A stretch of DNA of 35,212 bases, from assembly GCA_022560375.1 (NCBI GenBank), contig JADFTK010000006.1, positions 1-35,212 on the forward strand, in the 5' to 3' direction. The position numbers were made by a program, and so were the translations under genes. The stretch comes from Patescibacteria group bacterium (GTDB lineage Bacteria > Patescibacteriota > Patescibacteriia > UBA10025 > JAHIVO01). Under the pieces are notes generated by a model. That model saw nothing but the letters and a program-made list of their open reading frames with translations, searched no databases and had not been told where the DNA came from. Shown here one piece after another: positions 91 through 1,009 of this stretch; position 1 is the stretch's first letter, and every line of letters begins with the position of its first letter.

Positions 91-143
91 ATCAACAAAT
101 TAAAAATTATAATTCAAAATTTAAAATCTTTTTATTCTCTATG

Positions 144-216
144 AGCCGAGAGCGAGATTCGAACTCGCGACCTTTCCCTTACCATGGGAGTGCTCTACCA
201 GCTGAGCTACCTCGGC
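144..216 (-). tRNA. tRNA-Thr (anticodon GGT), copy 1, U73, no encoded CCA
   Basis: Cloverleaf read by eye: GCCGAGG/TCTCGGC acceptor, GCTC..GAGC D-arm, CTCCC-ATGGTAA-GGGAA anticodon arm, GCGAG-TTCGAAT-CTCGC T-arm. Confidence 0.93.
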
Positions 217-219
217 CAC

Positions 220-305
220 TGGTGGGTAGGGAGGGATTCGAACCCCCGAAGGCCGGAGCCAGCAGGTTTACAGCCTGCCCCGTTTGACCGCTTCGGTACC
301 TACCC
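220..305 (-). tRNA. tRNA-Tyr (anticodon GTA) with long variable arm and encoded CCA
   Basis: GGGTAGG/CCTACCC acceptor, anticodon arm GCAGG-CTGTAAA-CCTGC, variable arm CTCCGGCCTTCGG, T-arm GGGGG-TTCGAAT-CCC, 3' ACCA. Confidence 0.93.
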
Positions 306-570: not shown

Positions 571-722
571 GATTCCCCGCCTGAGGCGGGTGCGCCTCCG
601 GCGCAGAACCCCCGAAGGCCGGAGCCAGCAGGTTTACAGCCTGCCTTTGGTTTGACTGTCCGCCCTTTGGCGGAACCGCGGAGCCTGTCCTGACGAATGT
701 CAGGAGTACCTACCCATGTTAA
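571..722 (-). pseudogene. Disrupted second copy of tRNA-Tyr with palindromic insertions
   Basis: aacccccgaaggccggagccagcaggtttacagcctgcc (607-645) and tacctacccatgttaa (707-722) are identical to the intact tRNA-Tyr; D-arm and T-arm regions are replaced or expanded by palindromes at 576-590, 591-605, 659-674 and 688-705. Confidence 0.88.
576..705. repeat. Cluster of four short perfect palindromes
   Basis: CCCGCCTGAGGCGGG (576-590), TGCGCCTCCGGCGCA (591-605), TCCGCC-CTTT-GGCGGA (659-674), TCCTGAC-GAAT-GTCAGGA (688-705). Confidence 0.9.
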
Positions 723-748
723 TCTAATTGTAATGTTCACCCCGTCTG

Positions 749-821
749 AGCCGTCGCGCGGAATCGAACCGCGGACCTACTCCTTACCATGGAGTTGCTC
801 TACCAGCTGAGCTACAACGGC
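749..821 (-). tRNA. tRNA-Thr (anticodon GGT), copy 2, U73, no encoded CCA
   Basis: GCCGTTG/CGACGGC acceptor, ACTCC-ATGGTAA-GGAGT anticodon arm, CGCGG-TTCGATT-CCGCG T-arm. Confidence 0.93.
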
Positions 822-969: not shown

Positions 970-1009
970 GGAGTTGCTCTACCAGCTGAGCTACAACGGC
1001 TCGGGCGGG
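970..1009 (-). pseudogene. 5'-half tRNA-Thr fragment
   Basis: 40 bp identical to 791-830 (5' half of tRNA-Thr copy 2 plus upstream flank); no 3' half follows. Confidence 0.88.

Follow-up and report, generated by a model that had tools for sequence, protein, structure and literature searches.

The segment at 571-722 of the window (the whole 35,212-nt stretch of DNA analysed, contig C8 of a 1.107-Mb assembly with 97% completeness) is probably a remnant, the displaced 5′ part of a tRNA-Tyr gene that a free-standing, homing-like GIY-YIG unit has invaded, and the palindromic doublet in its T-loop probably marks the target site. This reading draws on sequence comparison. The layout of the locus, in which a broken 5′ tRNA part is followed by a GIY-YIG open reading frame (ORF) and then by an intact version of that tRNA, recurs with many tRNA types across the class, whose genomes in the pool used here range from 0.5 to 1.5 Mb. 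A sequence-only reading had described 571-722 as a tRNA-Tyr copy cut up by palindromes, and the sequence indeed reads as claimed. It had further taken the palindromes for mobile units that accumulated in a redundant copy. They do look like mobile units because their insertions are precise, and they recur; however, simple, random accumulation does not describe the T-loop pair, which has a preferred target, a fixed orientation and a fixed place upstream of the GIY-YIG gene. The nuclease gene and the site specificity were missed in that reading, and the redundant copy is accounted for by the nuclease unit.

The broken copy comprises the 5′ part of the tRNA only, without the 3′ acceptor strand (Table 1). 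Two blocks match the intact tRNA-Tyr locus perfectly, as had been stated, although they measure 40 nt (606-645, identical to 240-279) and 17 nt (706-722, identical to 296-312 and taking in 7 nt of the 5′ leader) rather than 39 and 16 bp. The proposed D-arm replacement likewise stands, with the minor correction that the tRNA copy lies on the minus strand: about 7 nt of the tRNA D-loop (CGAAGCG) have been exchanged for about 50 nt containing TCCTGACATTCGTCAGGA-CAGGCTCC and TCCGCCAAAGGGCGGA. Perfect palindromes occupy 576-590, 591-605, 659-674 and 688-705, and the first two abut and split the T-loop exactly where the earlier reading had placed the break. Excision of this doublet from the window in silico leaves a perfect tRNA-Tyr T-arm (35 nt, 100%). 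Since the joined flanks restore the tRNA exactly, without gain or loss, there is no target duplication.

Table 1. Features of the broken tRNA-Tyr copy and its surroundings (window positions).
Feature	Position	Strand	Remarks
Second tRNA-Thr (GGT), downstream neighbour of tRNA-Tyr	143..216	-	
Intact tRNA-Tyr (GTA)	220..305	-	Begins 7 nt past the GIY-YIG stop codon
GIY-YIG nuclease ORF, 80 aa	313..555	-	Between broken and intact tRNA-Tyr
Broken tRNA-Tyr copy	571..715	-	tRNA positions 1 to ~71; D-loop and T-loop interrupted
T-loop palindromic doublet	576..605	-	TGCGCCGGAGGCGCA (605-591) + CCCGCCTCAGGCGGG (590-576), at TTC^GAATC
D-loop palindrome TCCGCCAAAGGGCGGA	659..674	-	Similar copies in loci L084 and L187
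D-loop palindromic unit TCCTGACATTCGTCAGGA + CAGGCTCCG	679..705	-	Relatives at C28:8091, C28:8227 and L121
Duplicated 5′ leader, 7 nt	716..722	-	Equals 306-312
tRNA-Thr (GGT), upstream neighbour	748..821	-	
tRNA-Thr 5′ fragment (1-31), another broken copy	970..1000	-	Followed by palindromes at 924-938 and 867-892

Five of the window's 26 GC-rich palindromes (stem of at least 6) crowd within 130 nt at the broken tRNA-Tyr; shuffled windows hold 12-26 such palindromes per whole 35 kb, with about 0.1 expected in a 130-nt stretch. This crowding, together with the excess of palindromes upstream of GIY-YIG ORFs (119, compared with 11 in shuffled sequence and 17 in control stretches), rules out chance palindromes at 571-722. 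An assembly artefact was rejected as well, given the equal anatomy in many other genomes. Elsewhere in the window, at 867-1000, a tRNA-Thr 5′ half is followed by the palindromes CCCCGATCCACAGCGGTGGATTGGGG and CACAATTGAATTGTG without an ORF; this is probably a decayed unit of the same GIY-YIG/broken-tRNA sort.

Broken tRNA copies are frequent around the tRNAs of the same genome, for which the analysis covered named stretches around tRNAs and pattern matches. Six GIY-YIG genes were found there, and the four closest to the window's protein are each immediately followed by an intact tRNA (Tyr, Val, Glu and Lys) and preceded by 5′ fragments of that tRNA. A class-wide protein search located GIY-YIG relatives in 242 of 286 genomes, from which 110 loci were sampled by protein similarity alone (30 top, 40 next and 40 later held out, the last fetched only once the hypothesis was fixed). 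Among these relatives, which were picked by similarity and are not independent by descent, a same-strand tRNA lies just downstream of the ORF in 65 of 110 loci (22/30 top, 23/40 next and 20/40 held out), compared with roughly 0.5% estimated from tRNA density, and in 51 loci (19/30, 18/40 and 14/40) the ORF is preceded by a 5′ fragment of that tRNA. About 40% of the sampled ORFs had no adjoining tRNA detected. In two loci (L194 and L195), the halves of a tRNA-Gln split at the anticodon loop flank the GIY-YIG gene and an intact tRNA-Gln. Broken copies are also contained in 28 of 69 tRNA-Tyr loci of the class, where upstream fragments are mostly 5′ parts and downstream fragments mostly 3′ parts.

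Empty and filled sites, whose comparison had been suggested earlier, could be told apart across genomes rather than within one species: the gap between tRNA-Thr and tRNA-Tyr is 0-3 nt in ten class genomes lacking the ORF, and its median is 436 nt with a GIY-YIG ORF versus 70 nt without. In relatives carrying the ORF, the spacing from tRNA to tRNA is 0.33-0.67 kb. Breakpoints of tRNA fragments fall in loops in 117 of 212 cases (55%, versus 38% expected), with sharp peaks in the anticodon loop and T-loop. The proposition that all breakpoints lie in loops was rejected on that overall figure, and reliance is therefore placed on the exact peaks and the doublet sites.

The ORF at the centre of the locus encodes a GIY-YIG domain (PF01541, E 9.4e-14, above the cut-off). 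Its product is a bare domain whose nearest PDB match is UPF0213 (1zg2, E 2.5e-7), with a weak match to SLX1, a structure-specific nuclease. It is the sole gene between the broken and the intact tRNA-Tyr, the other listed ORF being an opposite-strand overlap, and no integrase gene was found in this interval. The ORF is not encoded in an intron or intein, as judged from an Rfam search of the window, which matched tRNAs only, and from its position between the two tRNA copies. A viral origin of the palindromes found no support in IMG/VR, where neither palindrome pattern was matched, and viral matches of the protein were confined to two weak Staphylococcus phage records.

The T-loop doublet is 30 nt long and consists of two abutting palindromes in one orientation, with the general form NNNGCC-NNA-GGCNNN followed by NNNGCC-TNN-GGCNNN; the palindromes P1 (NNNGCCNNAGGCNNN) and P2 (NNNGCCTNNGGCNNN) are each the inverse of the other. 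The search pattern left two outer pairs of P2 free, and these are complementary in 38/38 and 37/38 copies, with C-G and T-A states both common; the stems thus show compensatory changes. Recurrence, on which the mobile-unit reading depended, was found for both kinds of palindrome: TCCTGACATTCGTCAGGA occurs three times in the genome, and exact-pattern doublets number 62 in 34 of 286 class genomes (reversed control 0). At 0-7 exact doublets per genome, the element is not of high copy. Doublets joined to GAATC occur in 4 of 22 same-class genomes and in 1 of 265 genomes of other classes. Insertion takes place at TTY^GAA in tRNA T-loops, in the tRNA-Gln anticodon loop and at unrelated intergenic sites, where the flanks form inverted repeats (inverted-repeat test, P = 0.0015); some sites lie in a stem and not a loop, e.g., tRNA-Asn GCAGTT^GGCT. 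For 17 of 38 sites, there is no clear tRNA match.

Of the 43 doublets in the 73 GIY-YIG loci considered, 26 are situated upstream of the ORF at a distance of no more than 90 nt, and most of the ORF-proximal ones end 15-33 nt ahead of it, with NNA/TNN loops in a single orientation. The 3′ remnants downstream also contain doublets. Among GIY-YIG loci, the doublet is frequent only beside the closest relatives (about 19/30, then 4/40 and 3/40); it is also present away from GIY-YIG genes or tRNAs and thus may be an independent element. In L265, upstream of a GIY-YIG gene, a doublet is nested in the loop of a palindrome of the same type, at CCCGCCTT^GGGCGGG.

Insertion is site-specific, and the enzyme lineage matches the site. 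The nearest protein neighbour of a GIY-YIG enzyme has the same tRNA isotype in 28 of 58 cases (3.4 expected) and the same doublet site class in all 19 members of multi-member classes, which were hand-assigned from the flanks after some neighbour pairs were known and hence not blind. A Mantel test of protein score against the identity of the 12 flanking bases gave r = 0.61, and r = 0.55 when only pairs of different tRNA isotype were used, with 0 of 5000 permutations as high. Likewise, a tRNA-Gln T-loop unit is closer to tRNA-Tyr T-loop units (65%) than to tRNA-Gln anticodon-loop units (53%). Such a match is what a site-specific endonuclease predicts, unlike random palindrome accumulation.

In the mechanism that we favour, the GIY-YIG enzyme would cut in or close to a loop sequence of a tRNA gene, and repair would install the GIY-YIG gene while duplicating the 5′ part of the tRNA or supplying a whole tRNA. 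This would leave a remnant on the upstream side and a complete copy of that tRNA on the downstream side, and the cell would thereby retain a working tRNA. One clade of these units would have the doublet as a typical component, placed at the site apparently recognised by the endonuclease lineage (here TTC^GAATC in the T-loop). Because it sits exactly at this apparently endonuclease-specific site, it probably marks the site of cutting and insertion, which it destroys in the remnant. It may be an end of the element itself, an insertion that confers protection, or a miniature element with the same target as the nuclease. The direction of insertion, the joint movement of nuclease and doublet and a role in self-protection are all presumed here, and the intact downstream tRNA still has the presumed target sequence, which counts against this explanation. 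The D-loop palindromes are other, REP-like units, which would have entered the redundant copy later.

A more far-reaching model, which we put forward tentatively and with some doubt, is a two-part mobile system. A minimal, structure-selective GIY-YIG nuclease of UPF0213/SLX1-like type would open the hairpin loops of tRNA genes, and the 30-nt doublet would be inserted by or with it; the doublet would also spread alone as a miniature non-autonomous element, and the unit would spread over essential tRNA genes by virtue of the intact replacement tRNA. If true, such a system has not been described previously: it would work in a REPIN/RAYT-like manner, although its nuclease would be GIY-YIG and its target a hairpin loop. 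In the open-access literature on GIY-YIG proteins with Patescibacteria, tRNA genes or palindromes (a scope that left subscription literature mostly outside), the unit is not described.

An unlikely account is that REP/MITE-like mobile palindromes favour hairpin loops and pile up in a redundant tRNA copy, the GIY-YIG gene being unrelated or merely sharing the tRNA target. The doublets that lie outside tRNAs and away from GIY-YIG genes, in hairpin loops with TTY^GAA (P = 0.0015), would fit it, as would the doublet nested inside another palindrome in L265 and the recurrence of the D-loop unit in other tRNA clusters without a GIY-YIG link. Nevertheless, the fixed distance and orientation of the doublet before GIY-YIG ORFs and the match between nuclease lineage and doublet site argue for the nuclease unit, and the redundant copy itself requires that unit. 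The breakpoint peaks in the anticodon loop and T-loop, which integrases reportedly prefer, could instead point to remnants of tyrosine-integrase elements attached at tRNA genes, with the palindromes as leftover recombinase sites. Fragments of tRNAs are usually ascribed to integrative elements, from which they are common, or to CRISPR capture (PMC9897764). This origin is nonetheless quite improbable for units of 0.3-0.45 kb in which GIY-YIG is the only gene seen, 5′ fragments precede and 3′ fragments follow the same intact tRNA, and the doublet is an insertion within a loop rather than a crossover junction.

Selection on a functional structured RNA, in which the hairpin-bearing, tRNA-like leader forms the 5′ UTR of GIY-YIG mRNA or acts as a tRNA decoy, is highly improbable, even though the distance to the ORF is fixed, the stem changes are compensatory and the segment at 571-722 folds more stably than shuffles (z -3.6). 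Its best fold is not a tRNA cloverleaf, and doublets are also found in downstream 3′ remnants and at intergenic sites that match no tRNA. Moreover, the tRNA part hardly differs from the genome's own tRNA, which indicates a recent duplicate and not a diverged, selected RNA.

Several known systems resemble parts of the homing-like unit. The closest parallel in gene content is SegB of T-even phages, a free-standing GIY-YIG homing endonuclease tied to tRNA genes, including tRNA-Tyr, that is implicated in breaks within tRNA sequences and drives recombination of the tRNA region (PMC13096335; Brok-Volchanskaya et al., 2008). Like SegB, the unit here has a small stand-alone GIY-YIG gene adjoining tRNA genes, tRNA-Tyr among them; unlike SegB, it resides in bacterial chromosomes at many tRNA isotypes, includes a broken 5′ tRNA copy with a palindromic doublet at the target site, and encodes a protein that is no more than an 80-aa domain, closest to UPF0213. 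In rRNA genes of CPR bacteria, homing-endonuclease insertions have been reported, mostly LAGLIDADG genes in group I introns and mostly at the tops or bases of stem-loops, and the GIY-YIG cases were judged not to have spread by homing (PMC11270868). Both settings involve selfish nuclease genes, GIY-YIG included, in structural RNA genes of small-genome bacteria, but no intron is present here, and the tRNA is replaced rather than spliced.

With regard to the palindromes, REPINs are inverted REP doublets tied to the HUH transposase RAYT (PMC3116915), and the doublet system shares with them the inverted pairing of short palindromes, the presence of non-autonomous copies and a nuclease partner whose gene has palindromes next to it. 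However, the linked protein is GIY-YIG and not a Y1/HUH transposase, copy numbers are low (0-7 doublets per genome and three D-loop units), and the doublet targets mostly a TTY^GAA hairpin loop. The GTAG/GGAG tag at the palindrome foot is absent from the T-loop doublet. RAYT as its mobiliser was rejected, as the genome's own two Y1_Tnp genes are flanked by different palindromes. The D-loop palindromes are REP-like and dispersed; for the doublet, no RAYT/REP link was found. The sequence-only reading's comparison with Rickettsia palindromic elements was a poor fit in size and location: those elements are 100-150 bp long, many of them in protein genes, and the units here, although also palindromic and dispersed in a reduced genome, are 15-30 nt and lie in tRNA loops and intergenic hairpins. 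At L051 (C66), a RAYT-like Y1_Tnp gene is immediately followed, at 1772-1825, by two longer palindromes in inverted arrangement with CCTT/AAGG loops, which looks like an ordinary REPIN/RAYT arrangement in the same genome.

The D-loop palindromes are separate units from the doublet. The other two genomic copies of TCCTGACATTCGTCAGGA both lie in the C28 tRNA cluster, where one replaces the anticodon loop of a broken tRNA-Thr. On the other strand, the unit reads GGAG-NNNN-hairpin in its own-genome copies and in L121, and relatives in C28, C37 and a Patescibacteria record keep the GGAG foot with stems that are changed yet paired. A clade-special status was rejected, since the palindrome occurs in 42 GTDB stretches, many in unrelated bacteria, versus about 8 expected from 18 bases; it therefore belongs to a wider class of dispersed repeats. 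The second D-loop palindrome, TCCGCCAAAGGGCGGA, may be a lone, degenerate version of the doublet's first palindrome.

The nuclease unit would offer a simple cause for the many broken tRNA copies in reduced genomes, namely a selfish element that spares the working tRNA, and it cautions that such an element shapes tRNA gene counts and pseudogene calls in these genomes. It also provides natural enzyme/site pairs in which protein lineage predicts a 12-nt target, which allows direct tests of GIY-YIG specificity and of how palindromic miniature elements arose.

Further patterns were seen around tRNAs. At the tRNA-Lys locus of the same genome (G000, C22:14844-15304), a 5′ remnant, a GIY-YIG ORF, an intact tRNA-Lys and a 3′ remnant follow in order, and the anticodon arm of both remnants is swapped for CTCCGC...GCGGAG hairpins. 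In three genera, the anticodon of broken tRNA-Thr copies (L083, L088 and L073, in G002, G004 and G005) is interrupted at CCATG^GTAAGG by an inserted hairpin, TCCCGTC/CCCCGTC-GAAT-GRCGGGR. In a second pattern, the final 16-20 nt of a tRNA gene are duplicated about 110-170 nt downstream of that gene, as in G000 (C37:4367-4523, C44:1618-1634, C45:24496-24512 and C60:24323-24342) and in the relatives L073, L087, L088 and L100. The GC-rich DNA between the tRNA and this duplicate often starts with the reverse complement of the T-arm (GGATTCGAA-GGGC...GCCC...GAATCC), forming a conserved hairpin.
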